Origin: Pseudarthrobacter sp. IC2-21
GTDB taxonomy: Bacteria; Actinomycetota; Actinomycetes; Actinomycetales; Micrococcaceae
Direction of reading: 5' to 3'
NCBI RefSeq assembly: GCF_034048115.1
Contig: NZ_CP139145.1
Span: 186,001-250,000 of the forward strand
DNA length: 64,000 nt
In this document: positions 5,473-56,714 of the stretch, one piece after another
How positions within the stretch are numbered: position 1 is the first letter of the stretch
Layout: every line of letters begins with the position of its first letter
Notes under the pieces: model-generated
The model's database searches: none
Told to the model about the DNA's origin: nothing
What the model saw: only the letters and a program-made list of their open reading frames with translations
Position numbers and translations under genes: made by a program

Positions 5473-6125
5473 TGGGCGCCCTCCACCTTCTGCTCGTGGA
5501 CGACCACCCCGTGGTCCGGGCGGGTCTGCGCGCCATGCTTACGGAATTCGAGGACTTCACTGTGGCCGCCGAGGCGGCGGACGGGGACGCCGCGCTGCGT
5601 GAACTCGCCAGGCTCCGGGTCTTGGGGGAGCGCGTGGATGTGGTGCTGATGGACCTGCAGATGGGCGCCGGAATGGACGGCGTCGCCGCCACGAGCGCCA
5701 TCCGGAAGCTGGATTCCCCGCCGCCGGTCCTGATCCTTACCACCTACGACACCGAGGCGGACATCCTGGCCGCGGTGGAGGCGGGGGCCAGCGGCTACAT
5801 GCTCAAGGACGCCCCGCCGGAGCAGATCCGCCAGGCGGTGCTGGCCGCGGCGGCCGGGCAGACAGCGTTGGCTCCGAAGGTGGCGGCGTTGCTGATGTCG
5901 CGGATCAGCAGCCCGGAAACGGCGCTGACGCCCCGGGAGGTCCAGTTGCTGGAACTGCTCGCCACGGGCCTGACCAACAGGGCCATCGCACGCCAGCTCT
6001 TCATTTCCGAAGCCACTGTTAAAACCCATCTGGTGCACATCTTCGGCAAGCTCGGCGTCGACAACCGCACCTCGGCCATTGCCCTGGCCACGCAGCGCCG
6101 GATCATCCGCGCGCCGGGGCAGTAA
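5472..6125 (+). CDS. LuxR/NarL-type response regulator
   Basis: A 217-residue two-domain regulator. The receiver domain has the acidic pair D10/D11, the phospho-acceptor D61 in the context LMDLQMG, and a conserved Lys in the context LKDAPP. The C-terminal helix-turn-helix (about residues 150-205) carries LTPREVQLLELLA and the recognition helix region ISEATVKTHL. The start is fixed by the TGATG junction with the kinase gene. It is the cognate partner of that kinase, and the likely targets are the inverted repeats at 4014-4043 and 4098-4117. It converges with the MarR gene across a 15-base gap. Confidence 0.93.
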   Translation: MGALHLLLVDDHPVVRAGLRAMLTEFEDFTVAAEAADGDAALRELARLRVLGERVDVVLMDLQMGAGMDGVAATSAIRKLDSPPPVLILTTYDTEADILAAVEAGASGYMLKDAPPEQIRQAVLAAAAGQTALAPKVAALLMSRISSPETALTPREVQLLELLATGLTNRAIARQLFISEATVKTHLVHIFGKLGVDNRTSAIALATQRRIIRAPGQ

Positions 6126-6140
6126 CGCTCTTCCGCGGGA

Positions 6141-6611
6141 TCAGCTGTTGTTTGCTTCCCGGAGTTCGGCCATGGCTTCGGCCACCAGTTGCGCCCGTTC
6201 GGCCCCCAGGATGGCCACGAAGTTGGCATGGACCAGTCCGGCGACGAAACAGGCCAGTGCATTGGCGGTTTCGGTGCCCTCGACGGTCAGTTCGAGGTAG
6301 ACAACCCGGCGGTCCTCCGCGCAGGGGCTGCGCTGGACCAGGGACCGCTTCGCCAGCCGGTCGGCGATCTTGGTGAAGCCGCCGTTGCTGAACTCCACTT
6401 CCCTGGCCAGTTTCGCCATGGGCATCCGGGCGCCGGGAGTGCGGACCAGCCGCAGGAGCGTCTCGGCTTCTGCCGGTTCCAGGCAGAAGGCGGAAGAGAC
6501 TTCCGCGTGCACCTTCTTGTTGGTGTTCTGGAAGCCCTCAATGACCAGCCCCCACTGCGAAATCACATCAAGGTCCCCGGTGGTCGGGGTGTGCTTCTGC
6601 GTGGCCGGCAT
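6141..6611 (-). CDS. MarR-family transcriptional regulator
   Basis: A 156-residue winged-helix regulator. The recognition-helix region reads EFSNGGFTKIADRLAKR, followed by a wing with CAEDRRVVYLELT; the DRR pattern is typical of MarR proteins. The start is an ATG at 6611 after GGAAAGGGA; a longer frame reaches 6824 but would run through a strong hairpin. It lies downstream of the FMN reductase on the same strand, separated by that hairpin. The perfect inverted repeat at 7422-7439 upstream of the reductase is its most likely operator. MarR proteins of this kind usually respond to phenolic or oxidative ligands; the ligand is not visible here. Confidence 0.85.
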   Translation of the reverse strand: MPATQKHTPTTGDLDVISQWGLVIEGFQNTNKKVHAEVSSAFCLEPAEAETLLRLVRTPGARMPMAKLAREVEFSNGGFTKIADRLAKRSLVQRSPCAEDRRVVYLELTVEGTETANALACFVAGLVHANFVAILGAERAQLVAEAMAELREANNS

Positions 6612-46270: not shown

Positions 46271-47524
46271 ATGACCATCACCACCGAAAACGCCTCGTCC
46301 ATCGCCGAACTGGAGCGCACCAAGGTCCTGAAGAACGGCAAAAAGGTCAGCCTCACGTTCTCAGACACGGAGTTTGAGCGCCGTCTCGCGGGACTGCGCC
46401 GCATCATGGCGGAGAAGGAGCTCGACGCCGTCGTCCTCACCAGCTACCACTCCATCAAGTACTACTCCGACTTCCTGTTCACCACCTTCGGCCGCTCCTA
46501 CGCCATGGTGGTCACCAAGGATGACAACGTCACCGTCACCGCCAATATCGACGCCGGGATGCCTTGGCGCCGCAGCTACGGCGACAACATCATTTACACG
46601 GACTGGCGCCGGGACAACTACATCTTCGCCATCCAGGAAGTCCTGCGCACCCGCGGCATCAACCCGCGCCGCCTCGGCGTCGAGGATGACTCGCTGCCGC
46701 TGGATAACCGCAACAAGATCCAGGCCGCCTTCTCCGGCGCCACCCTGGTGGACGTGGCCCAGGCGGCCATGCGCCAGCGCATGATCAAGTCCGCCGAGGA
46801 AATCGAGGTCATCAAGCACGGCGCCCGCATCGGCGACCTCGGCGGCGAAGCGATCCGCAACGCCATCACGGCCGGCATCACCGAATACGAGGTGGCCCTG
46901 ATCGGCACCGAAGCGATGGTGCACGAGATCGCCCGCACCTTCCCCGACTCCGAAATCCGCGACACCTGGGTCTGGTTCCAGTCCGGCATCAACACCGACG
47001 GCGCCCACAACTGGGCAACCACCCGCAAGATCCAGGAACACGACATCCTGTCCCTGAACTGCTTCCCCATGACCTCGGGCTACTACACGGCACTGGAACG
47101 CACCCTGTTCTACGGCGAACCGGATGCCCGCTCGCTGGAACTGTGGAACATCAACGTCGAGGTCCACAAGCGCGGCCTGGAACTGATCAAGCCCGGCGCC
47201 GTCTGCAAGGACATCGCCGCGGAGCTCAACGAGATCTACGTCGGCTACGGCCTCCTGGCCAACCGTACGTTCGGCTACGGCCACTCCTTCGGCGTCCTGA
47301 GCCACTACTACGGCCGGGAAGCCGGGCTGGAACTCCGCGAGGACATTGACACGGTGCTGGAACCGGGCATGGTGGTTTCCATGGAACCGATGATCACCGT
47401 CCTGGACGGCCAGCCGGGCGCGGGCGGCTACCGCGAGCACGACATCCTCGTGGTGGGCGAAGATGGTGCGGAGAACATCACCAAGTTCCCGTTCGGCCCC
47501 GAATACAACATCATCGGAGCCTGA
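46271..47524 (+). CDS. Creatinase (creatine amidinohydrolase)
   Basis: A 417-residue pita-bread-fold hydrolase. It closely resembles Pseudomonas creatinase, including SYHSIKYYSDFLF, WFQSGINTDGAHN, YYTALERTLF, FGYGHSFGVLSHYYGREAG and VVSMEPMI. The catalytic His aligns with His246, and the substrate-binding Glu residues align with Glu276 and Glu372 (His232, Glu262 and Glu358 in Pseudomonas, a constant offset of 14). The metal ligands of aminopeptidases in this fold are absent, as expected. It hydrolyses creatine to sarcosine and urea. The sarcosine is the substrate of the sox operon 3 kb away. No urease is in the window. Confidence 0.95.
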   Translation: MTITTENASSIAELERTKVLKNGKKVSLTFSDTEFERRLAGLRRIMAEKELDAVVLTSYHSIKYYSDFLFTTFGRSYAMVVTKDDNVTVTANIDAGMPWRRSYGDNIIYTDWRRDNYIFAIQEVLRTRGINPRRLGVEDDSLPLDNRNKIQAAFSGATLVDVAQAAMRQRMIKSAEEIEVIKHGARIGDLGGEAIRNAITAGITEYEVALIGTEAMVHEIARTFPDSEIRDTWVWFQSGINTDGAHNWATTRKIQEHDILSLNCFPMTSGYYTALERTLFYGEPDARSLELWNINVEVHKRGLELIKPGAVCKDIAAELNEIYVGYGLLANRTFGYGHSFGVLSHYYGREAGLELREDIDTVLEPGMVVSMEPMITVLDGQPGAGGYREHDILVVGEDGAENITKFPFGPEYNIIGA

Positions 47525-47538
47525 CAACCTGAGAACCG

Positions 47539-47583
47539 GCCGGGAAAGCGGCGCCGTGGCTGACACGACGCCGCTTTCCCGGC
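47539..47583 (+). terminator. Hairpin between the creatinase and creatininase genes
   Basis: A perfect 15-bp outer stem (47539-47553 and 47569-47583) with an inner CGTG/CACG pair. No T-run follows, so it is probably an attenuator or mRNA-stability element rather than a full stop. Confidence 0.55.
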
Positions 47584-47588
47584 ACTTC

Positions 47589-47645
47589 CACCCCCACCCT
47601 GTACCACCCCCACTCCGTACCACCCCCACTCCGTACCACCCCCAC
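47589..47645 (+). repeat. 16-bp minisatellite before the creatininase gene
   Basis: Units CACCCCCACCCTGTAC (47589-47604) and CACCCCCACTCCGTAC twice (47605-47620, 47621-47636), then a 9-base partial unit. The array is 17 bases from the creatininase start and abuts its AAGGAG ribosome binding site. Confidence 0.92.
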
Positions 47646-47661
47646 AAGGAGCACCACGAGC

Positions 47662-48486
47662 ATGGACAAGTCAGTATTTCTGGAAGACCTGGACGCCTTC
47701 GCCTACCGCGAAGTCCTGTCCTCCGGGGAAGCGATCGTCCTGATACCTGTCGGTTCCCTGGAACAGCACGGCCCGCACCTGCCGCTGGGAACTGACACCC
47801 TGCTGTCATCGCGCTTCGCGGATGGTGTTGCACGGCGCCTGGGGGCACTCGTTGCCCAGCCCATCGCCTACGGGTACAAGTCGCAGCAGAAATCCGGGGG
47901 CGGCAACCATCTCTCGGGGACCACCAGCCTGGACGGCGCAACCCTGATCGGGGTGGCGCGCAACCTGGTCAAGTCCTTCCTTAACCAGGGCGTCCGGCAC
48001 GTGGTCTTCGTCAACGGCCACTTCGAGAACTACCAGTTCCTCTACGAAGGAATTGACCTGGCCCTGGAAGACCTGGGGATCAAGCCCGGCGCGAAGCAGA
48101 GCGTGCTGCTGCTCTCCTACTGGGACTTCGTCAGCCAGGACACCCTGACGGAGGTCTACCCGGACGGATTCCCGGGCTGGGACATCGAGCACGGCGGCGT
48201 ACTGGAAACCTCCCTGATGCTTCACCTTGAGCCGGCCCGGGTGGGCATGGACCGCCTTGTAGATGGTCCAGCCGCCGTCCTGCCACGCTTCGACAGGCTC
48301 CCGGTGGTTCCTGAGCGCACGCCGGCCACCGGCTGTCTCTCCTCGGCCGCCGGTTCCAGTGCGGCCAAGGGCGAACTGCTGTACCGGCAGGTGGTCGAAG
48401 ACCTGGCCGTTGACCTTGCCCGCGAGCTGAACCGCGAAGGCGTTATGCCTGCAGCGCCGCCGCTATCCGCTCACTATGCGCAATGA
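47662..48486 (+). CDS. Creatininase (creatinine amidohydrolase)
   Basis: A 274-residue metal-dependent amidohydrolase. It matches Pseudomonas creatininase in order and spacing: PVGSLEQHGPHLPLGTDTLL (metal-binding Glu, His, Asp), YGYKSQQKSGGGNH, GTTSLDGATL, VNGHFEN and WDIEHGGVLETSLML. It interconverts creatinine and creatine and so feeds creatinase. The ATG lies 10 bases after AAGGAG. Its end overlaps the IclR frame (ATGA at 48483-48486), and an inverted repeat straddles the junction. Confidence 0.94.
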   Translation: MDKSVFLEDLDAFAYREVLSSGEAIVLIPVGSLEQHGPHLPLGTDTLLSSRFADGVARRLGALVAQPIAYGYKSQQKSGGGNHLSGTTSLDGATLIGVARNLVKSFLNQGVRHVVFVNGHFENYQFLYEGIDLALEDLGIKPGAKQSVLLLSYWDFVSQDTLTEVYPDGFPGWDIEHGGVLETSLMLHLEPARVGMDRLVDGPAAVLPRFDRLPVVPERTPATGCLSSAAGSSAAKGELLYRQVVEDLAVDLARELNREGVMPAAPPLSAHYAQ

Positions 48487-48492
48487 TAGTGA
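48471..48492. promoter_or_regulatory. 7-bp inverted repeat at the creatininase/iclR junction
   Basis: TCACTAT (48471-48477) and ATAGTGA (48486-48492) are exact inverted copies with an 8-base spacer, spanning the stop codon and the IclR start region. It could be an autoregulatory IclR site or a translational structure. Confidence 0.45.
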
Positions 48493-49355
48493 GCACCATG
48501 AGCAAAGCAGATTCCCTCGACACCAACGGCAACGGCACCAACCCGGCCGAGGCCAACGGCAAGGCAGACACCAAGGGCGCCTCAGTCATTGTTAACGCCA
48601 TCGCCGTGCTTCGCTCCTTCACCGCGGACGAGCCGTTGCTGGGTGTCACGGAAATTGCGAACAGGGTAGGCCTGCACAAGAGCACGGTGTCCCGGATCCT
48701 GGCGACTTTTGAACAGGAAAACCTTGTGGAGCGGGACGAGGACACGCGCCGCTTCCGGCTCGGGTTGGGGCTGATCGCCGTCGCCGGACCGCTGCTGGCT
48801 GAACTGGAGGAGCGCCGCGTCGCCTATCCGGTCCTCCGCGAACTCACCGAACTGACTGGCGAAACGAGTGCCCTGATGATGTGGGAGGGCAATCAGTCCA
48901 TCTGCGTGGAGCAGATCGCGAGCCGGCACCAGATCAAACACACCACCCCGCTGGGGGCCCGTTACAACGATGCCTTGAGCGCCTCGGTCCAGGTGTTCCT
49001 CGCCACCGAACCGGAGGAGCGCGTGCGTTCACTCATCCGAAGCGGCGCCATCACTTACGCGGGGGTGGATGAGACCAGCCTCGACGGTTACCTGGTCCGC
49101 CTGAAAGAAGACTCCCGGCGTGGCTGGGCCGTCAACTACGGGGAGAGTTCACTGGATGAAGTGGGCGTGGCCGCGCCCGTCTACGATCACCGCGGCGACG
49201 TTGTTGCAGCAGTCCTCATCCCCGCCCCGCGGTTCCGCGTCTCCCAGGAGCGGCTCCAAAACCTCGGCCAATCATGCATGGCGGCAGCCAACAAGGTCAC
49301 CGCGCGGCTGGGCGGCAAAGCGCCCGGGGCCGGCAGCGCAACCAGCGCCGGCTGA
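48483..49355 (+). CDS. IclR-family transcriptional regulator
   Basis: A protein of up to 290 residues. The winged helix (about residues 35-90) contains VTEIANRVGLHKSTVSRIL. The IclR ligand domain follows, with conserved LGARYNDALSASVQVFLA and a C-terminal RRGWAVNYGESSLDEVGVAAPV. Translation could start at ATG 48483 (overlapping the creatininase stop) or at ATG 48498; neither has a strong ribosome binding site. As last gene of the transporter-creatinase-creatininase run it likely controls that run, perhaps through the GTTGC sites at 44765-44792. Confidence 0.88.
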   Translation: MIVSTMSKADSLDTNGNGTNPAEANGKADTKGASVIVNAIAVLRSFTADEPLLGVTEIANRVGLHKSTVSRILATFEQENLVERDEDTRRFRLGLGLIAVAGPLLAELEERRVAYPVLRELTELTGETSALMMWEGNQSICVEQIASRHQIKHTTPLGARYNDALSASVQVFLATEPEERVRSLIRSGAITYAGVDETSLDGYLVRLKEDSRRGWAVNYGESSLDEVGVAAPVYDHRGDVVAAVLIPAPRFRVSQERLQNLGQSCMAAANKVTARLGGKAPGAGSATSAG

Positions 49356-49380
49356 CCCGCCGGAAACCACCCCGCCCCCA

Positions 49381-49450
49381 GGAACGCTCTCTCACTTAAT
49401 GCAGGAAAAACCGGATCGCTCTCTCACTTTCTTCAAGAAAGTGAGAGAGC
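49381..49450. repeat. Dispersed CTCTCTCACTTAATG repeat, locus E
   Basis: A forward unit (49385-49403), the sequence ACCGGATCGCTC, and a near-perfect hairpin of GCTCTCTCACTTTCTT with its complement (about 49418-49450). It borders the left end of the IS element. Confidence 0.88.
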
Positions 49451-49493
49451 CCCTCTCCGTCAGGCTGGTTGTGAGTCATTCATTTCCTGTTGA

Positions 49494-49913
49494 GTGAAGG
49501 AGCCGGCGATGCCCGTTGATAACAAGGGTTTTACGCGTGAAGAGATCCGTGAGTTCATGCATGAGTACTATTTGCAGCCGCATGGGTCGAGGAAGGAGTG
49601 GCTTGCCTCGACGTCCGTTTCGGACTGGACGTTCCGCAGGTGGCGCACTCTGATGGTCCAGGGCGATATCGACCGTGGCCTGATTCCGCGGGAACATGGA
49701 GGCATGGTCCCGACGAATCGTGAGCTCTCCGCGTTTGAAAAAGCACGCGCGAGGGAAATAGCTGCCCACCGTGCCGAAGTCGAAAAACTCCAGAAGCGGG
49801 TGCAGGAGCTGGAGGACACGAATTCCGCACTGGGAAAAGCTATCCGGCTCTTGCACGAGTTGAGCGTGCCAGAGCCCGATACAACCCCGACGAGCGCTCA
49901 GAACGGTTCATAG
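49494..49913 (+). CDS. IS3-family transposase OrfA
   Basis: A 139-residue protein. The N-terminal helix-turn-helix region (about residues 10-55) includes EWLASTSVSDWTFRRWR. A coiled coil follows at about residues 80-120 (EIAAHRAEVEKLQKRVQELE), as in IS3 OrfA proteins. It ends at TAG 49911-49913. The orfB frame is already open before this stop, in the -1 frame, the usual arrangement for a programmed -1 frameshift that makes the OrfAB transposase. Confidence 0.8.
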   Translation: MKEPAMPVDNKGFTREEIREFMHEYYLQPHGSRKEWLASTSVSDWTFRRWRTLMVQGDIDRGLIPREHGGMVPTNRELSAFEKARAREIAAHRAEVEKLQKRVQELEDTNSALGKAIRLLHELSVPEPDTTPTSAQNGS

Positions 49914-49933
49914 CGGCCGAGAACTGTCTCGTC

Positions 49934-50945
49934 GTGGAGCTGCAGGTGGTCATCGGCTCCCAGCGGGCAGCGCTCGAGCTGGCGGGCGTGTCGCGCGGGA
50001 GCTGGCATTACCGGTTCAATCCCCGTCCGGGGGGGTGTCAGGACCCGATCCACCAGGCCGACCGTGCCTACGAATGCCGGATCAGTACCGACCATCACGA
50101 CCGGATTCTGGGGTTCATCCTGGCCGGTTGGGAGAAGGGCAACTCCGTTGACCATGCCTTCGCCACAGCCTGGGACAACGGCGTGCTGCTCGCCTCCAAC
50201 CGCACGTGGTGGCGGATCGCGGCAGAGTACGAGGATCAGCAGGCCCGCCCAACCATCCCGCGCAAGCGTGGAAGCAAAACGTCGTTCCTCTGAGGCGCCG
50301 GTCCTCAAGGCCACCGGACCTTCCCAGGTCTGGTCCTGGGACATCACTGATGTCTATTCCAAATGGCAGGGAAAGGTTTTCAAGTACTCCGTCATGGACA
50401 TCTTCTCCCGGGAGATCGTCGGCTGGCGGGTAGAGGAACGAGAGTCCGACCACCTCGCCGCGGAGATGTTCAAGACAGCCATCGCCCGACACGGCGCCCC
50501 GCTTATCGTGCACGCCGATTCAGGGCCGGCCATGAAATCAAACCTGCTCCGAGACACCCTCACCGCCCACAGCGTGGAACTCAGCCACAACCGCCCGTAC
50601 GTCTCCAACGACAACCCCTTCTCGGAGTCAGGGTTTCGCACGATGAAATACCGGCCCGGCTACCCCCGGATCTTTGAGGATCTCGAAGCCGCCAGGGCCT
50701 ACCTCACCGGCTATGTCCGCTGGTACAGCACCGAGCACAAACACTCCGGCATTGCACTGTTCTCACCATCGCAAGTTCACAACGGCTCGTGGAAAGAGCT
50801 CTGGGACCAGCGGGACAAAGTCCACCAGGACTACTACGAACGACACCCAGGACGGTTCCGCCAACGACCCAACACACCCGCCCCCGCCACACACGTCGGG
50901 ATCAACCTGCCCGAGACCAAAACACCCCAAAAACAAGCCCAGTGA
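49934..50945 (+). pseudogene. IS3-family transposase OrfB, frameshifted
   Basis: The first part (49934-50293) encodes an OrfB N-terminal region (LAGVSRGSWHYRF and NRTWWRIAAEY) but stops at TGA 50291. The DDE catalytic part continues in another frame: VWSWDITD (first Asp), VHADSG (second Asp) and NPFSESGF (Glu), with 35 residues between the last two. The frames switch near an AAAA run at 50276-50279. The break lies inside OrfB, not at the usual orfA/orfB slip site. So this copy is probably inactive, or the run contains a sequencing error. Confidence 0.75.
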
Positions 50946-50968
50946 CTCCACACAGCTTGACAACTAAC

Positions 50969-51105
50969 GAGCGATCCGGTTTAAGCCGCATTAAGTGAGA
51001 GAGCGTCGAGTAAAAACCCACGTTAAGTGAGAGAGCGTCGAGTAAAAACCCACGTTAAGTGAGAGAGCGTCGAGTAAAAACCCACATTAAGTGAGAGAGC
51101 GTCAG
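50969..51105 (-). repeat. Dispersed CTCTCTCACTTAATG repeat, locus F (tandem array)
   Basis: Four reverse-orientation units carry TTAAGTGAGAGAGCGTC at 50991, 51023, 51055 and 51087 (period 32), separated by GAGTAAAAACCCAC(G/A). The first 37 bases (50969-51005) are an inverted, 33/37-identical copy of 49385-49421 on the other side of the IS. Confidence 0.9.
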
Positions 51106-51389
51106 GCCTGTTCGGAGCTGGGGGGATCGTCGGCGTCGATTTCGTCCGAGTAGGGTGCGCGGGGGCCTTCGTTGCCGGCGGTAAGTTCGTTCGCGGCCAT
51201 GGCCAGCAGGTCCCGCTGGAGCTGGGGGAGGGAGAGCAGTCCCTGCATGTAGGCTTCCACCTCGTACTCGCCCACGGTCCCGCCGATGCCGAAGTAGTAC
51301 AGCCACAGGTCGCCGGTGGTAACTTGTGCTGCAGTCAGCGCTGCCTGGAGCCGGCGGCGCTGCTCGGGTTCGCTGCTATCGAAGCCCAT
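51102..51389 (-). CDS. Small protein of unknown function, copy A (GAF-ANTAR partner)
   Basis: A 95-residue protein. It shares LWLYYFGIGGT and a following acidic, leucine-rich helix (EAYMQGLLSLPQLQRDLL) with the 79-residue protein at 53051-53290. The ATG at 51389 lies inside the last codons of the upstream GAF-ANTAR gene (14-base overlap), with GAGG eight bases before it. No signal peptide or membrane segment is visible. I do not recognise the family. The repeated overlap with GAF-ANTAR genes suggests a functional partner, perhaps a modulator of that regulator. Confidence 0.75.
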   Translation of the reverse strand: MGFDSSEPEQRRRLQAALTAAQVTTGDLWLYYFGIGGTVGEYEVEAYMQGLLSLPQLQRDLLAMAANELTAGNEGPRAPYSDEIDADDPPSSEQA

Positions 51390-52116
51390 CACTGGTGCCT
51401 CTAGGCCGGTCAGTGCTGACAGCCAAAAGAGCGGCGCTGACTTCGCTGAGCGTGGTGCGCGAGGTGCGGGCCTGCTTCATCAGCTGCTGCAAGGCCTCGT
51501 CCTCGCTGAGGGTATGGCGCTCCATGAGGACTCCGCAGGCCCGGTTGATCAGGTCCCTGCTGTGGAGGGCTGCCTGGAGGCTTTCACTGATGCGTGCGGG
51601 GGTTTCGGCAGTCTGGATGTGCGCGAGCAATGTTGCCGCGGGCGCGGCAAACAGCTCCATGAGGGTGGTGGTGGCCTCATCGAAGGCGTTGGGGGTTGCG
51701 GCGTAGATTTTCATGGCGCCGAGGGCCTCGCCGTCGGTAAGGAGTGGCGTGCTGACCACTGAGCGGATGGGAAGGCCAGCCACGGCTGAGCTCCAGCCCG
51801 GCCACCGGCCATCCTTGGCCACGTCGCGGATCAGGACGCTTTGCTCGGTGGCCCAGGCGGTGAGGCAGGGGCCCTGGACCAGTTCGTATTGCAGGGTATC
51901 AGCGCGTTGAACCACGGCATCCGTGGACCCTGAACTGACAGGCCGGGCATTGGGGTCAAGAATGGAAACGCCGGCTCCCAGCGTCCCCGGAATGGAGTCC
52001 CGGACGGCCCGCGAGAGCAGCTGCACGGCGCGGTCCACCTTCTCTTCCGTGAGGAGGAGCCCCATAATCCTGCCGAGGACGGTGGAAAGTTCATCCAGGG
52101 GATATTTCTTGATCAT
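51376..52116 (-). CDS. GAF-ANTAR domain regulator 3
   Basis: A 246-residue protein. A GAF domain (about residues 20-165, with LVQGPCLTAW and VVSTPLL) is followed by an ANTAR domain (about residues 180-240) with NRACGVLMERHTLSEDEAL. ANTAR domains bind paired RNA hairpins and cause transcription antitermination. The ATG at 52116 follows GGAGG with eight bases of spacing. The 3' end overlaps the small-protein gene. The signal sensed by the GAF domain is unknown. Confidence 0.88.
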   Translation of the reverse strand: MIKKYPLDELSTVLGRIMGLLLTEEKVDRAVQLLSRAVRDSIPGTLGAGVSILDPNARPVSSGSTDAVVQRADTLQYELVQGPCLTAWATEQSVLIRDVAKDGRWPGWSSAVAGLPIRSVVSTPLLTDGEALGAMKIYAATPNAFDEATTTLMELFAAPAATLLAHIQTAETPARISESLQAALHSRDLINRACGVLMERHTLSEDEALQQLMKQARTSRTTLSEVSAALLAVSTDRPRGTSDGLR

Positions 52117-52256
52117 ACTTTCTGCCTCCGGCCATTCAGCGTGACCGGCCATCGGAGGGCCGGATAACCCTGTTTCGGGCCGCTCAGCGCTTTCAGGTAA
52201 AGCCTAACGCGTCCGCTGGGCCGAGAGCCCCGCGCGGCACGATTCGCGTACACGGG

Positions 52257-53033
52257 CTATTCGTCATATGGGGTAGGGAATTCCTGTTCGCCGGAAACCG
52301 ACGAGACGATGCTGGCGGCCACCTCCCTCAGTTTGATGTTCCGGTGGCTGGACGTCTTCACCAGGATGTCGAATGCCTCATCCCGCCGGCACCTGTTCTG
52401 GGCAATGATGACCCCGATCGCCGTGTCGATAACGGTGCGGGATTTCAGGGCCGCGGAGAGGTCATCACGCGCAGTACGCAACTGCGCCATGTTCAGTGCA
52501 ATATCGAGGGCTTTCGCGGCTGTGCCGGTGAGGCTCTCGGCCTGGTCAATCCCGTCATGCGAGAAGCCGTCCGGGACGGGCGCGTACAGGTTCACCACGG
52601 CCTGCGCGGGTGCCTGGAGATGCATGGGTACGGCGAGGATGGATCTGATCTCCACGGCGCGTGCGGCACCGTTGTATTTGGGCCAGCGTGGTTCCGAGTC
52701 CAGATCCGGGACGTAGATCACAGTCCCGTTCCGGAGGGCCGTGAGGCAGGGCCCGTCGCCGAAGCTGTTCTGCAGTTCATCCAGGGCCCGGGCCCTGGAA
52801 TCGCTGCTGGCCACCGTGGTGGGCCGTTTGTTCCGGATTACGGTGATCCCGCACGAGATGTGGTTCCCGCTCTGTGACAGCCGCGAGGCCATGATGGCGG
52901 CCATATCCGTGAGGAAGTCACGGACGTCGGAACTTTGCAGGATGACGTCCTGGAGCTGGAGGACAAAATCTTCCACGCTCTCTTCCCGGCCGCCGTCGTA
53001 ATGGAACTTCCGCGTATCCATTCCCTCGGACAT
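52257..53033 (-). CDS. GAF-ANTAR domain regulator 2
   Basis: A 258-residue protein. Its GAF domain includes DGPCLTALRNGTVIYVPDL and SILAVPMHL, and its ANTAR domain includes TAIGVIIAQNRCRRDEAFDIL. The ATG at 53033 has a strong GGAAGGGAG five bases upstream. It begins 17 bases after the end of the upstream small protein (copy B) and, unlike its two neighbours, is not followed by a small-protein gene. Confidence 0.88.
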   Translation of the reverse strand: MSEGMDTRKFHYDGGREESVEDFVLQLQDVILQSSDVRDFLTDMAAIMASRLSQSGNHISCGITVIRNKRPTTVASSDSRARALDELQNSFGDGPCLTALRNGTVIYVPDLDSEPRWPKYNGAARAVEIRSILAVPMHLQAPAQAVVNLYAPVPDGFSHDGIDQAESLTGTAAKALDIALNMAQLRTARDDLSAALKSRTVIDTAIGVIIAQNRCRRDEAFDILVKTSSHRNIKLREVAASIVSSVSGEQEFPTPYDE

Positions 53034-53050
53034 GGGCACTCCCTTCCTCT

Positions 53051-53290
53051 TCAGTCCGCCGTGATCTCTTTGATGGCGGTATGGAGCAGATCCACCTGCA
53101 GGGGAGGAAGCTCCACCATTTCATTCAGATAGGCGTCCAGCACCACTTCATCTGCAGTGCCGCCGATTCCGCAATAGTAGGTCCACAGCTCGGGGACCGT
53201 CAGGTTTGCCCGCTGGAACTGAGCCGCCGCAAACTTGCGCGGGTCCGGTTCGAAGGCAGACTGCTCGGAAGAAGCCCTGTCACTGATCAT
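53051..53290 (-). CDS. Small protein of unknown function, copy B (GAF-ANTAR partner)
   Basis: A 79-residue paralog of the protein at 51102-51389. It shares LWTYYCGIGGT, an acidic stretch and an LPPLQVDLL helix. Its ATG lies within the end of GAF-ANTAR regulator 1 (11-base overlap), with GGAGAG five bases upstream. The same arrangement in both copies argues for translational coupling with the regulator. Family and function are unknown. Confidence 0.75.
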   Translation of the reverse strand: MISDRASSEQSAFEPDPRKFAAAQFQRANLTVPELWTYYCGIGGTADEVVLDAYLNEMVELPPLQVDLLHTAIKEITAD

Positions 53291-54014
53291 CGGTCTCTCC
53301 GGTAATCACCGGAATCCCGGATGCGTTGCGCAGGATGTCCTGGGCGATGTCATGCATCCGCCGGTTGGTGCTGCGGGAGGCCAACTGCAAAAGCTCAAGC
53401 GCAGCCTCATGGCTACAGCGGTTGTGCACCATGATGAGTGAAACGGCTGAGTCCACGATCGCCCGGGAGCGGAGCGCGGACCTGAGGTGTTCCGGATAGG
53501 GCTCAGGAGAATGCACCCGCATGGCCAGGCGGAGGATCCTGGAAAGGGACTTGGCGTGATCTTCCACTGCCGCGACCGTCTCCGCCGAGAATGCGTGGGC
53601 TTTGGTTGAATAGCAGTTCAACGCCGCCCGGGAGCCGTTGTCGGCGGGAATGGGGACAGCCAGAATCGTCTGGATTCCCTCGCTCGAAATGGCTTTTGCG
53701 TACCACTCCCAGCTCTCGTCCGCCTCAAGATCGGGGATGTGGACCGTGCGCTGGTGCCGCAGGGCGGTCAGGCACGGACCGTCGTCGTAAGCGTACTGGC
53801 GCTCATCGAGGCTGCGCGCTTCAGCGGAGCTGCTGGCCACCGTTGCCGGGCCGCTCTGGCGTTCCACCGTAATGGCGCACAGCATGGGCGCATCCCCGCC
53901 GAGCAGGGACGCGGAAATGGCGGTAAGTTCCAGAAGGAATTCGGTGAAGCCGGGGCTCTCCAGCAGCAGGTCCTGCAATTGCTCGGCGGTGGGGAGGGCG
54001 TTGTTCTCGGCCAT
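53280..54014 (-). CDS. GAF-ANTAR domain regulator 1
   Basis: A 244-residue protein from the chosen start. The GAF domain contains DDGPCLTALRHQRTVHIPDL and TILAVPIPA. The ANTAR domain contains SRAIVDSAVSLIMVHNRCSHEAAL; the usual Gly of the ANTAR GVLM-like motif is replaced by Ser. The ATG at 54014 follows GAGG. An alternative ATG near 54138, after AAAGAG, would add about 41 residues. It is the first gene of the minus-strand run of three regulators and two small proteins, and divergent from the hydrolase gene. Confidence 0.85.
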   Translation of the reverse strand: MAENNALPTAEQLQDLLLESPGFTEFLLELTAISASLLGGDAPMLCAITVERQSGPATVASSSAEARSLDERQYAYDDGPCLTALRHQRTVHIPDLEADESWEWYAKAISSEGIQTILAVPIPADNGSRAALNCYSTKAHAFSAETVAAVEDHAKSLSRILRLAMRVHSPEPYPEHLRSALRSRAIVDSAVSLIMVHNRCSHEAALELLQLASRSTNRRMHDIAQDILRNASGIPVITGETDDQ

Positions 54015-54212
54015 GCGGCCTCGATTCCATGCATCGCCGGAGGTCACTGACCCGGCTGGCGGCTGGGCGCTCTCTGCGCGCACGGCCCGAATAGTTAACC
54101 CCGGACCCTTGTGCCACCCGAAATCTTCTACTATCGACATTACGCTCTTTGCAGGGCGCCGCGGGCTGGCCGGGTCAACTATTAGTAGGGCACAACAGAA
54201 GTGGGGGATGGG

Positions 54213-55010
54213 GTGAAGCGGCACAAATACCAGTACGGTGGCGACCCCAGCCAGTGGGGTGAGCTCTTCCTGCCGGACGTGCCCGACGGCGGTGCGCACC
54301 AGGGGATAGTGGTGGTGATTCACGGGGGCTACTGGCGCCCGCAGTACGGCGCCGAACTAGGGGAACCGATCGCAACGGACCTGGCCGCCCAGGGCATCGC
54401 CGCCTGGAACCTCGAATACCGGCGTGCCGGAAACGGGGGAGGCTGGCCCCATACCTTCCTGGACGTGCTGGCGGGACTCGACAAGCTGCGCGATGTTGCG
54501 GCCGGGCATGGCCTGAGCCTGGACCGCGTGGTGGCGTTGGGGCATTCGGCCGGCGGCCACCTTGCCGTCTGGGCGGCCGGCCGGGACATACTCGCCGAGT
54601 CCGGCCTGCCGGAGGTGCACCGGCAGCTACCGTCGCAGCAGGATGCGGTGCACCTTACGGGTGTGGTCAGCCAGTCCGGCCTCCTCAACCTCGCCGAGGC
54701 GGAGCGGCTGAACCTCAGCAATGGTGCGGTGAGCAACCTGCTGGGGGGACCGTCGTCGGACTATCCGCTCCGCCTCCGGTACGCGGACCCCATGACCGCC
54801 CTCCCGCTGGCCGTGCCCGTAATTGCGGTTCACGGGGCCGCCGACGACACCGTTCCCTTGAGCCAGTCCGGGTCCTACGTCGAGGCGGGCACGTCAGCAC
54901 ACATGCCGGTCCGGTTGGTGACGGTTCCCGGCGACCATTACGACCTCATCGACCCGAAAACCGCCGCGTACCGCACGTGCCGCGAGCTGGTTCGGTCGCT
55001 CCTGGGTTAG
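54213..55010 (+). CDS. Alpha/beta hydrolase, kynurenine formamidase-like
   Basis: A 265-residue serine hydrolase. It has an oxyanion-hole motif VIHGGYW near residue 34, the nucleophile elbow GHSAGGH near residue 110, a late Asp in GAADDTVPL, and the catalytic His in GDHYDLID. HGGYW with GHSAGGH is typical of kynurenine formamidases and related esterases, but no tryptophan catabolic genes are nearby, so the substrate is open. The start is GTG 54213 after GGGGGAT, or a GTG four codons earlier. Confidence 0.82.
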   Translation: MKRHKYQYGGDPSQWGELFLPDVPDGGAHQGIVVVIHGGYWRPQYGAELGEPIATDLAAQGIAAWNLEYRRAGNGGGWPHTFLDVLAGLDKLRDVAAGHGLSLDRVVALGHSAGGHLAVWAAGRDILAESGLPEVHRQLPSQQDAVHLTGVVSQSGLLNLAEAERLNLSNGAVSNLLGGPSSDYPLRLRYADPMTALPLAVPVIAVHGAADDTVPLSQSGSYVEAGTSAHMPVRLVTVPGDHYDLIDPKTAAYRTCRELVRSLLG

Positions 55011-55128
55011 ATTCGGGGCCTGGGGTACGGATTCCGGAAATTAGGTACGACACTCTAGACATTGGACATCCCATCTCCTGTACTCTAGGAGTAAGACAAG
55101 TCGCCTGCCGGCGCAAGGAGGAGATCAC

Positions 55129-55860
55129 GTGGCTACCGCATCCCAGGAAGTTTCACCTGCCCGTTTCAGCGCGCAGCTCCGGTCGCATGCCCTGCAGACG
55201 CGGATCATGGACCTCATCCTGGAGCGTGGCCTGGACGTGGGGGACGCCCTGCCCACCGAAAGTGAACTCTCCGCCGAGCTCGGGGTGGGCCGCAACACCG
55301 TCCGCGAATCCCTGAAGGTACTGCAGGCACTCGGCGTCATAGAGATCCGGCACGGCTTCGGCATGTTCGTCGCCCCCAACAACTTCAGCGCCCTGGTCTC
55401 CGGCCTGACCTTCCGCGGCCGGCTGTCGCTGCGCCACAAGGGCGAAGAAGCCATGGAACTGATCGACGTGCGGCAGGCCCTCGAATCCGGGCTGATCGGC
55501 TCCGCCATCGACCTCCTCACGGACCAGCACCTCGCGGATCTGCGCACCACGATGGAAGCGATGGAAGCGGCCGCCAAGAATGGCGAGCACCTGTATGTGC
55601 ACGACGCCGAGTTCCACCGCCGCCTTTACGCGCCCCTTAACAATGAGCTGCTGATCAACCTGATGGACGTGTTCTGGCAGGTGTACCGCAAGATCCACCT
55701 GGCTCTCGGTACCGGCCCGGTCAACCTCGAAGAGCAGACCCGGGTCCACTGGGACATCTACCAAGCCGTGGCCGACAAGGACAAAGCGTTGGCCTCCGAG
55801 CGCCTGCAGCGCCACTTTGACGGCATCCGCCTGAAACTCAAGGAAGTCGCGGCCAGCTAG
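55129..55860 (+). CDS. FadR-type GntR-family (FCD) regulator
   Basis: A 243-residue regulator. The winged helix contains PTESELSAELGVGRNTVRES and LGVIEIRHGFGMFV, and the FCD domain carries DAEFHRRLYAPLNNELL. The GTG start follows a very strong AAGGAGGAG. It precedes nagB in the same direction with an 86-base gap, so control of amino-sugar use is plausible. Upstream, two ACTCTAG copies (55052-55058 and 55082-55088) lie 30 bases apart and may be part of its operator. Confidence 0.88.
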   Translation: MATASQEVSPARFSAQLRSHALQTRIMDLILERGLDVGDALPTESELSAELGVGRNTVRESLKVLQALGVIEIRHGFGMFVAPNNFSALVSGLTFRGRLSLRHKGEEAMELIDVRQALESGLIGSAIDLLTDQHLADLRTTMEAMEAAAKNGEHLYVHDAEFHRRLYAPLNNELLINLMDVFWQVYRKIHLALGTGPVNLEEQTRVHWDIYQAVADKDKALASERLQRHFDGIRLKLKEVAAS

Positions 55861-55946
55861 CGCGGCCGCATCCACACGCCCTGCCCGGCGCCCGCACCCG
55901 CGGGCGGACTTAGCCCTGCCCGCTTTTCGTAGAGAGTGCCTTTGAC

Positions 55947-56714
55947 GTGGAAATCTTCGTAGTGCCCACCGCCGCCGCCACCGGTTCCGTTGCCGCCGGG
56001 ATCCTTGCCGCGGTCATCCGCAGCAAACCCGGCGCCGTCCTGGGCCTGGCCACCGGCGGCTCGCCGCTGCCTATCTACAAAGCGCTCGCGGGCCATTCGG
56101 TGGACATGTCAGGGGTCAGCGGCTTCGCCCTGGACGAATACGTGGGCCTGCCCGCCGGCCACCCGGAAAGCTACGCGGAAGTTATCCGGCGTGAGGTGAC
56201 TGAACGGCTGCACCTGGACCGCGCCAGGGTGGCCGTGCCGGACGGCAGTGCTGCGGACCCCGGCCGGGCGGCTGCCGACTATGACGCCGCCATTGCCGCC
56301 GCCGGCGGGATCGACGTGCAGATTTTGGGCATCGGCCACAACGGGCACCTGGCCTTCAACGAGCCGGGCTCCGCCCTGGACTCCCGGACCCGCGTGGAGG
56401 TCCTCACCGAGCGCACCCGGGCGGCCAACGCCCGCTACTTCAGCACTCCCGCGGAAGTCCCGCTCCGCTGCATCACCCAGGGCCTGGGCACCATCATGGA
56501 GGCCCGGCACCTTTTGCTGGTGGTCAATGGTGCGGACAAGGCAGCCATCCTGGCCGCCGCGCTGAACGGTCCCGTCTCCGCCGGCTGCCCGGCGTCAGTC
56601 CTGCAGCGGCACCCGCACGTGACGGTGGTGGCCGACGAGGCAGCCGCCTCACAGCTGGCGCCGGGCAGCGGCCAGGTGGCCGTGCGGGTGGCGGAAGCGG
56701 CCGCCGGCGTCTAA
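55947..56714 (+). CDS. nagB: Glucosamine-6-phosphate deaminase
   Basis: A 255-residue isomerase/deaminase. It has GGSPLPIYKAL near residue 36, ALDEYVGL with the catalytic Asp near residue 65, and ILGIGHNGHLAFNEPGS with the catalytic His near residue 135. It converts glucosamine 6-phosphate to fructose 6-phosphate and ammonia. The start is a GTG at 55947. The usual partner nagA is not in the window. It converges with gabD across a 9-base gap. Confidence 0.93.
   Translation: MEIFVVPTAAATGSVAAGILAAVIRSKPGAVLGLATGGSPLPIYKALAGHSVDMSGVSGFALDEYVGLPAGHPESYAEVIRREVTERLHLDRARVAVPDGSAADPGRAAADYDAAIAAAGGIDVQILGIGHNGHLAFNEPGSALDSRTRVEVLTERTRAANARYFSTPAEVPLRCITQGLGTIMEARHLLLVVNGADKAAILAAALNGPVSAGCPASVLQRHPHVTVVADEAAASQLAPGSGQVAVRVAEAAAGV

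Follow-up and report, generated by a model that had tools for sequence, protein, structure and literature searches.

GAF-ANTAR proteins belong to a large class of RNA-binding regulators, and only a few members of this class have been characterised (PMC7496416). The part of that source drawn on here names proteins with GAF and ANTAR domains within a large and little-characterised one-component subclass, and describes NasR as an autoinhibited one-component ANTAR protein that carries its sensor and its ANTAR domain in one chain. Two systems with a separately encoded partner are covered in the part of a further source used here (PMC3795266). NasS, a nitrate/nitrite sensor with an apparent mass of about 38 kDa, forms a complex with NasT, and AmiC, a small-molecule-binding protein, forms a heterotetrameric complex with AmiR.

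Here we analysed a stretch of 64,000 nucleotides (the window) from Pseudarthrobacter sp. IC2-21, whose genome encodes 14 ANTAR domains. The window contains GAF-ANTAR regulators accompanied by small genes, an arrangement that partly resembles each of these systems. As with NasS-NasT (PMC3795266), an RNA-binding protein of the ANTAR type appears as one regulatory unit with a partner that has its own gene, but the presumed sensor, the GAF domain, is part of the ANTAR protein itself, and an 8–10 kDa helical domain takes the partner's place. Moreover, complex formation of NasS and NasT has been demonstrated according to the same text, whereas we infer the docking of the small protein on the GAF-ANTAR regulator. 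The ANTAR regulator with its cognate partner protein also recalls AmiC-AmiR, although the small protein, unlike AmiC, is predicted to be a short all-helical domain. Like NasR, the GAF-ANTAR regulators combine sensor and ANTAR domain in a single chain; unlike NasR, which is autoinhibited within that chain, the one-component regulator is accompanied here by an additional gene product.

Results

Three GAF-ANTAR genes lie in tandem on the minus strand, two of them overlapped by paralogous small genes, as the initial annotation had proposed and as the Pfam matches and coordinates confirm. Regulator A (P0005, 244 aa; 53280..54014, minus strand) is paired with small protein 2 (P0002, 79 aa; 53051..53290, minus strand), a type II form without the APYS tail, whose gene overlaps the end of gene A by 11 nt from its ATG at 53290. 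Regulator C (P0003, 246 aa; 51376..52116, minus strand) is paired with small protein 1 (51102..51389, minus strand; 95 aa from the ATG at 51389), a type I form with the APYS tail; the overlap with the end of gene C is 14 nt from this ATG and 17 nt from an alternative GTG at 51392. Regulator B (P0004, 258 aa; 52257..53033, minus strand) has no accompanying small gene, and among the loci seen its cluster comprised 59 without a small gene and 2 with one. Inspection of the sequence located a ribosome-binding-like GGAG for small protein 2 (53297..53300, minus strand) within gene A and a ribosome-binding-like AGAGG for small protein 1 (51398..51402, minus strand) within gene C, both purine-rich and inside the 3' end of the preceding regulator gene.

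The ANTAR domain (PF03861) was detected in regulators A (E 1.9e-14, 53.6 bits), B (E 3e-17, 62.6 bits) and C (E 1.3e-16, 60.6 bits) against a Pfam cut-off of 27.3 bits. All three carry a GAF domain N-terminal to ANTAR, with GAF_2 and GAF exceeding the Pfam cut-offs (GAF_2 E 3.7e-10 in regulator A and 6.6e-15 in regulator C). Small proteins 1 and 2 share 45% identity across 65 residues (E 2e-18), and both contain LWxYYxGIGG, in agreement with the shared motif noted at the outset.

A first scan used the small protein alone as the query and kept the best 80 of 160 relatives in the genome contigs, as 79 loci. Of the 109 domain copies in these loci, 96 follow a GAF-ANTAR gene at a distance of no more than 150 nt, which argues that the pairing in the window is more than chance; the 13 exceptions were inspected. 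The full set comprises 182 distinct copies (domain hits with E up to 1e-3 and model coverage beginning no later than position 25, identical cores merged). In this set, 142 copies start no more than 150 nt past the stop codon of a GAF-ANTAR gene on the same strand and 156 lie within 1 kb of a GAF-ANTAR gene on either strand; these genome-search tallies are lower bounds, since for most genomes a part of the initial candidates was scored (13 of 51 in one case), and many loci reach only ~1.5 kb upstream. Two loci, one with ~100 nt visible upstream (L051) and one with the regulator end out of frame (L065), were counted as unpaired. Searching from the regulator side, with a profile derived solely from regulators followed by a small gene, gave 32 matches; among the 30 whose type I loci were inspected, a small gene lay within 171 nt downstream in 23 and was absent from 7. 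The type I regulators in the collected loci numbered 105 with a small gene and 2 without, a count that is biased because most loci were retrieved through the small protein; the search from the regulator side was meant to offset this bias. The lineage of regulator C is the one most tied to the small domain. The opposite pattern, with homologs mostly away from ANTAR genes, was looked for and is not what was found.

A gene adjoining that of the ANTAR protein is a trait of NasS/AmiC-type partners that the small genes share. Another such trait, a ligand-binding sensor of solute-binding size, is absent from these proteins of 79–95 aa with an all-helical model and no Pfam match. Besides Micrococcaceae, at least ten further family groups contain such pairs, with Mycobacterium gordonae and Brevibacterium among the named loci, and pairs are also found on plasmids.

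Of 142 regulator/small gene pairs, 41 overlap, 86 are separated by 0–20 nt, 7 by 21–60 nt and 3 by more than 60 nt, and 5 have no clear start. No reading frame relative to the regulator is preferred by the small gene (37/58/59 in 154 pairs, duplicates included). Adjacency is conserved and overlap is not; the overlap itself is ordinary, and we rejected it as a signal. The proposal that the overlap keeps the two proteins in a fixed ratio is accordingly weak, since the majority of pairs show no overlap. We also dismissed the idea that the natural product is a fusion made by frameshift or read-through, because the frames are mixed and the small genes have their own start codons with ribosome-binding-like stretches.

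For 40 of the 182 copies, no GAF-ANTAR gene lies directly upstream. In one family group (f79) all four loci are unpaired, with a GAF-ANTAR gene ~750 nt upstream in two and none seen in the other two. Further exceptions are orphan copies upstream of apparent cytochrome oxidase genes and a Kocuria-like genome with at least 15 copies, 7 of the 13 with loci standing apart from GAF-ANTAR genes. These orphan and Kocuria-like copies favour an explanation in which the small protein serves as an effector or output, is co-transcribed by circumstance and acts elsewhere, for instance on a respiratory or stress target, with the regulator setting only its level. We regard this explanation as unlikely: a mere co-transcribed output would not be expected to segregate with its cognate regulator lineage, nor to be fused to phosphatases whose genes invariably follow GAF-ANTAR genes, as described below.

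The regulator and small-domain distance matrices correlate over 134 pairs (r 0.87). Within loci that hold several pairs (22 loci, 47 pairs), true partners gave r 0.89 against a mean of 0.09 when partners were swapped within the locus, and the highest r in 500 such swaps was 0.37. Two small-domain clusters match two regulator clusters, accounting for 104 and 24 of the 134 pairs. Co-inheritance of two linked genes is not in itself proof that their products touch. Partner-specific GAF-ANTAR columns were set aside as interface evidence because they mainly separate lineages.

Eleven SpoIIE phosphatases (PF07228) carry the small domain at their N-terminus, as other SpoIIE phosphatases carry N-terminal domains. 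These fusions are found in other families, spanning seven family groups, and all eleven sit 8–35 nt behind a GAF-ANTAR gene. Together with the neighbourhood and the co-inheritance of pairs, they lend strong support to the view in the initial annotation that the small protein is made with and for the regulator. Unlike in these fusions, the small domain forms a separate protein in the window, as it does in the majority of copies. Six of seven fusions to a GAF domain are not downstream of a GAF-ANTAR gene, and an apparent SMALL-GAF-ANTAR fusion (locus L090) was attributed to a frame error, because the small domain runs out of register at its end.

The phosphatase fusions could also mean that the small domain is the input domain of SpoIIE-type partner-switching phosphatases under GAF-ANTAR control, and that the stand-alone forms in Micrococcaceae are remnants which lost the phosphatase part and act as decoys or dominant regulators. 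A locus in which a type I regulator directly precedes a SpoIIE gene without a detected small domain (L207) points the same way. However, stand-alone forms are far commoner (164 of 182, three of them in long frames of unclear kind) and are present beyond Micrococcaceae as well, and most type I copies bear their own C-terminal APYS tail. A FastTree phylogeny of the short domain shows three changes, the direction of which the tree does not fix. We consider this origin of the small proteins quite improbable.

The AlphaFold2 model of small protein 1 (mean pLDDT 90.4, pTM 0.79) is a compact, all-helical single domain. Among the named matches that Foldseek gave in PDB and BFVD, most are lambda-repressor/XRE-like domains (probabilities reach 0.98); the best E-values, 0.56 (PDB) and 0.19 (BFVD), are not significant, and the helix arrangement of the model weakly resembles theirs. 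Positions 43 and 45, which occupy the place of the recognition helix, hold acidic residues in 90% and 93%, respectively, of the 42 sequences compared, and the small-domain core has a median net charge of -6. The acidic positions and the core charge speak for binding of protein rather than nucleic acid.

The charge also bears on the possibility that the small protein works as a chaperone-like or dimerisation subunit, activating rather than inhibiting RNA binding by ANTAR. The adjacency (142/182) and co-inheritance of the pairs suit such a subunit equally, and NasT and AmiR are reported, in the part of the source cited, to be oligomeric after release from their partners (PMC3795266), but an acidic protein is better suited to masking a basic RNA-binding surface than to supporting RNA binding, and we attach little probability to an activating role. 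A DNA-binding HTH regulator of the operon, although suggested by the Foldseek hits, is highly improbable given E-values that are all 0.19 or worse, the lack of any Pfam HTH family at E 1 among the window proteins, and the acidic recognition-helix position and core.

No curated family in Pfam, NCBIfam or PHROGs matched the small domain above its cut-off; weak matches were scattered, the best (E 0.0064) in 1 of 42 members. A profile match to AcrIF4 (E 0.13) was taken as chance. A phage or mobile origin was rejected: small protein 1 had no match in 50,697 phage records, and no match of the small-domain profile was confirmed in viral contigs; four plasmid records did match. No description of the small protein was found in the openly licensed literature. 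With no fewer than 182 distinct sequences, the domain is a candidate for a new protein family.

A tethered co-fold of the GAF-ANTAR and small proteins reached a pTM of 0.50, and therefore no defined arrangement of the two is predicted; this value speaks neither for nor against contact between them, including a stable complex that comes apart on ligand as expected of NasS/AmiC-type partners. Paired ANTAR hairpins, which the initial annotation had suggested as targets, were not found near the cluster by a simple A..G.. hexaloop pair pattern. The scan of the 64 kb gave 4 matches, 1 and 3 by strand against 1.6 per shuffled strand, the nearest to the cluster at 47271-47289, and Rfam gave no match up to E 1 for 49000-56000.

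Discussion

The small domain is tiny and acidic, lies directly behind one type of GAF-ANTAR gene in many soil bacteria, and is probably the dedicated partner of that regulator. The best reading of the data is that it partners one main GAF-ANTAR lineage (type I, here regulator C with small protein 1) and part of a second (type II, regulator A with small protein 2). On balance, we favour the view that the product of the small genes is an as yet undescribed domain of actinobacteria, a dedicated and co-translated partner that docks on the GAF-ANTAR protein and gates it. Binding, ligand and direction of control are all features that we infer.

In this proposed mechanism, the small domain would dock on the GAF-ANTAR protein at the GAF domain or at the GAF-ANTAR hinge. 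By analogy with NasS/NasT and AmiC/AmiR, the docked domain would most likely keep the RNA-binding ANTAR domain inactive until GAF senses its signal. Since the same module heads SpoIIE phosphatases, the same docking may allow GAF-ANTAR proteins to control a phosphatase, and the fused small domain would couple the regulator to phosphatase output. A more specific form of this proposal, which we put forward as speculative and of low probability, is an acidic 'anti-ANTAR' module that masks the RNA-binding face of the cognate GAF-ANTAR dimer and comes off once the GAF domain senses a signal, its SpoIIE-fused form placing the phosphatase under GAF-ANTAR control. If this were true, RNA antitermination and partner-switching signalling would be joined in one unit.

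A dedicated partner domain that exists both alone and fused to SpoIIE would offer a direct handle on the switching of GAF-ANTAR proteins. The occurrence of the small domain on SpoIIE phosphatases further leads us to predict that, in actinobacteria, RNA-level control is connected to signalling by phosphatases.

Genomic organization of the GAF-ANTAR cluster

The cluster lies on the minus strand, from 54014 to 51102, in the order GAF-ANTAR A, small 2, GAF-ANTAR B, GAF-ANTAR C and small 1, and Pfam places GAF and ANTAR domains in all three long proteins. The overlap with the 3′ end of the preceding regulator gene is 11 nt for small 2 (with GAF-ANTAR A) and 14 nt for small 1 (with GAF-ANTAR C), and the small proteins share 45% identity across 65 residues; the tandem regulator trio with two overlapping paralogous small genes described in the initial annotation is thus borne out. 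The host genome contains 14 ANTAR domains and two copies of the domain shared by small 1 and small 2 (hereafter the small domain). Neighbouring genes of catabolic type (creatinase-like peptidase, creatininase and IclR regulator; 46271–49355) form a locus that might be regulated together with the cluster.

Small gene 1 is directly adjoined, at its stop codon, by 32-nt REP-like units. Genome-wide, this repeat (core AAGTGAGAGAGCGW) is present in 88 copies, 44 on each strand, against none for the reversed control; the copies are frequently arranged in tandem at a spacing of 32 nt and in inverted order. In the window it occupies 50994–51101 and 49380–49420. The repeat region harbours, at 49494–50945, an IS-like element that has an rve integrase core; in the near-identical locus L042, the repeat palindrome is present and the insertion is absent.

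Distribution of the small domain

Neither small protein matched Pfam or NCBIfam at E-values up to 1, and scans of their relatives (29 in Pfam, 42 in NCBIfam) returned weak matches in single members only. With small 2 (P0002) as the query, matches were found in at least 36 of 197 genomes of Micrococcaceae, the family of the window, representing 11 of 32 genera. Small-domain profile A1 matched at least 26 of 347 genomes of the order and at least 4 of 396 of the phylum, and profile A3 at least 11 of 394 genomes of the class and at least 4 of 246 of the phylum, all of these tallies being lower bounds. Among named genomes, scanning recovered 160 relatives, the best 80 of which were kept as 79 loci. 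Nearly all of these come from Arthrobacter, Pseudarthrobacter, Paenarthrobacter and Kocuria, with one each from Brevibacterium, Mycobacterium gordonae, a further Micrococcaceae and a contig labelled Vibrio cholerae. The last, L101 (strain 35D; 4.5 kb), is most likely a contaminating contig; its GAF-ANTAR/small pair closely resembles that of Arthrobacter agilis. Small protein 1 had no match among phage records and no viral contig was confirmed; four plasmids had a match.

Adjacency of small and GAF-ANTAR genes

Among 182 distinct small-domain sequences in loci L001–L190, 142 lie directly behind a regulator (paired, that is, ≤150 nt downstream of a same-strand GAF-ANTAR stop) and 40 do not; 156 have a GAF-ANTAR gene within 1 kb on either strand. 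The paired copies comprise 128 stand-alone genes, 11 SpoIIE fusions and three other long frames, and in 40 of the 142 pairs a second GAF-ANTAR gene follows within 1.2 kb downstream, giving the A–small–B order of the window. Given 14 ANTAR genes and an inferred total of several thousand genes, chance alone would put a gene in the paired position far less than 1% of the time.

The 79 named loci hold 109 copies, 96 of them paired, and the 13 exceptions were inspected individually. A contig end cuts one locus (L051), the regulator is out of frame in another that also has a second, partial small-domain copy (L065), and the regulator lies 1.2 kb upstream in two (L097, L100). L118 has one degraded copy and one copy 378–381 nt behind an ANTAR-type frame, and in L098 the extra copy is part of a fusion with a GAF domain. 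Two loci (L073, L077) are orphans, as is a group of four (L093, L095, L099, L102; near 6001–6240) with no GAF-ANTAR gene nearby, located upstream of apparent cytochrome oxidase genes, a label read from sequence without a family call. None of the four loci of family group f79 is paired. A Kocuria-like genome of 3.9 Mb (G031) has 15 copies; of the 13 with loci, five are paired, one lies at 170 nt and seven are apart from GAF-ANTAR genes.

Seen from the regulator, a profile built from 16 type I GAF-ANTAR proteins (the main lineage, here C with small 1) yielded no fewer than 32 matches, spread over at least 19 of the 149 genomes. A small gene lies ≤171 nt downstream in 23 of the 30 type I regulators with loci and is absent in seven; all 13 best-scoring regulators have one. 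The type I regulator at L207 (1304–2071) has no small gene; the gene directly 3′ of it encodes a SpoIIE phosphatase, and the small domain was not detected there.

Co-inheritance and domain fusions

The small-domain and GAF-ANTAR distance matrices of 134 distinct pairs are correlated (r = 0.87), with r = 0.87 for the GAF half and 0.76 for the ANTAR half. At 22 multi-pair loci, true partners gave r = 0.89, against a mean of 0.09 and a maximum of 0.37 in 500 swaps of partners within loci. Cluster matching assigned 104 of the 134 pairs to one combination of a small cluster with a regulator cluster, 24 to a second such combination and left six of other types. Possession of a small gene changes 15 times along a FastTree of 239 GAF-ANTAR proteins, compared to 78 when shuffled, and at least 12 of the 15 changes are forced by well-supported branches. 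The correlation shows a unit rather than an interface, because linked genes may share a history without contact.

In seven other family groups, the small domain forms the N-terminus of a protein of ~490 residues with a C-terminal SpoIIE phosphatase, verified by Pfam in 7 of 7 proteins of one set and 4 of 4 of another. All 11 of these fusion genes sit 8–35 nt behind a GAF-ANTAR gene. Seven further proteins join the small domain to a GAF domain; one (L005) lies behind a GAF-ANTAR gene and six do not, although one of the six, on an A. agilis plasmid, is convergent with such a gene.

Predicted fold and search for RNA targets

From 29 rows, AlphaFold2 modelled the small domain with confidence (mean pLDDT 90.4, pTM 0.79), giving four main helices plus one short additional helix. 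Named Foldseek matches were mostly lambda-repressor/XRE-like, the best having E-values of 0.56 in PDB and 0.19 in BFVD. Across 42 sequences, W29 is invariant and Y32, G37, L54, A65 and E68 are nearly so. Positions 43 and 45 of the putative DNA-reading helix are acidic in 90% and 93% of these sequences, respectively, and the core is itself acidic (median net charge −6), so we read the model as a probable protein-binding domain built on an HTH-like fold. A tethered co-fold set up to probe contact, in which 27 same-frame pairs were read through the regulator stop as one chain, kept the secondary structure of all domains but reached a pTM of just 0.50. Because it modelled one chain rather than a dimer, and from a shallow alignment, it neither supports nor refutes contact and is not counted towards the interaction.

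Rfam gave no match up to an E-value of 1 between 49000 and 56000. A simple window scan for ANTAR-type pairs of neighbouring hexaloop hairpins found one plus-strand and three minus-strand matches, against 1.6 per shuffled strand. None is near the cluster, the closest (47271–47289) being almost 4 kb away. Actinobacterial ANTAR RNAs have already been published, in a paper whose main text does not contain the word GAF (PMC8164766).

Discussion

The nearest working analogues of the GAF-ANTAR/small pair are NasS–NasT and AmiC–AmiR, in which, as described in PMC3795266, a separately encoded partner holds the ANTAR protein until the ligand comes. Here, in contrast, the ANTAR protein already contains the presumed sensor domain, and its partner is a very small, acidic domain, in some cases joined to a phosphatase. 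That the small domain both inhibits by masking the RNA face and couples to the phosphatase seems unlikely. We favour a reading in which the small protein serves a GAF-ANTAR lineage as its cognate partner; a partnership in some form is highly probable, and we lean slightly towards a mechanism in which the small protein would dock on its GAF-ANTAR partner and gate it.
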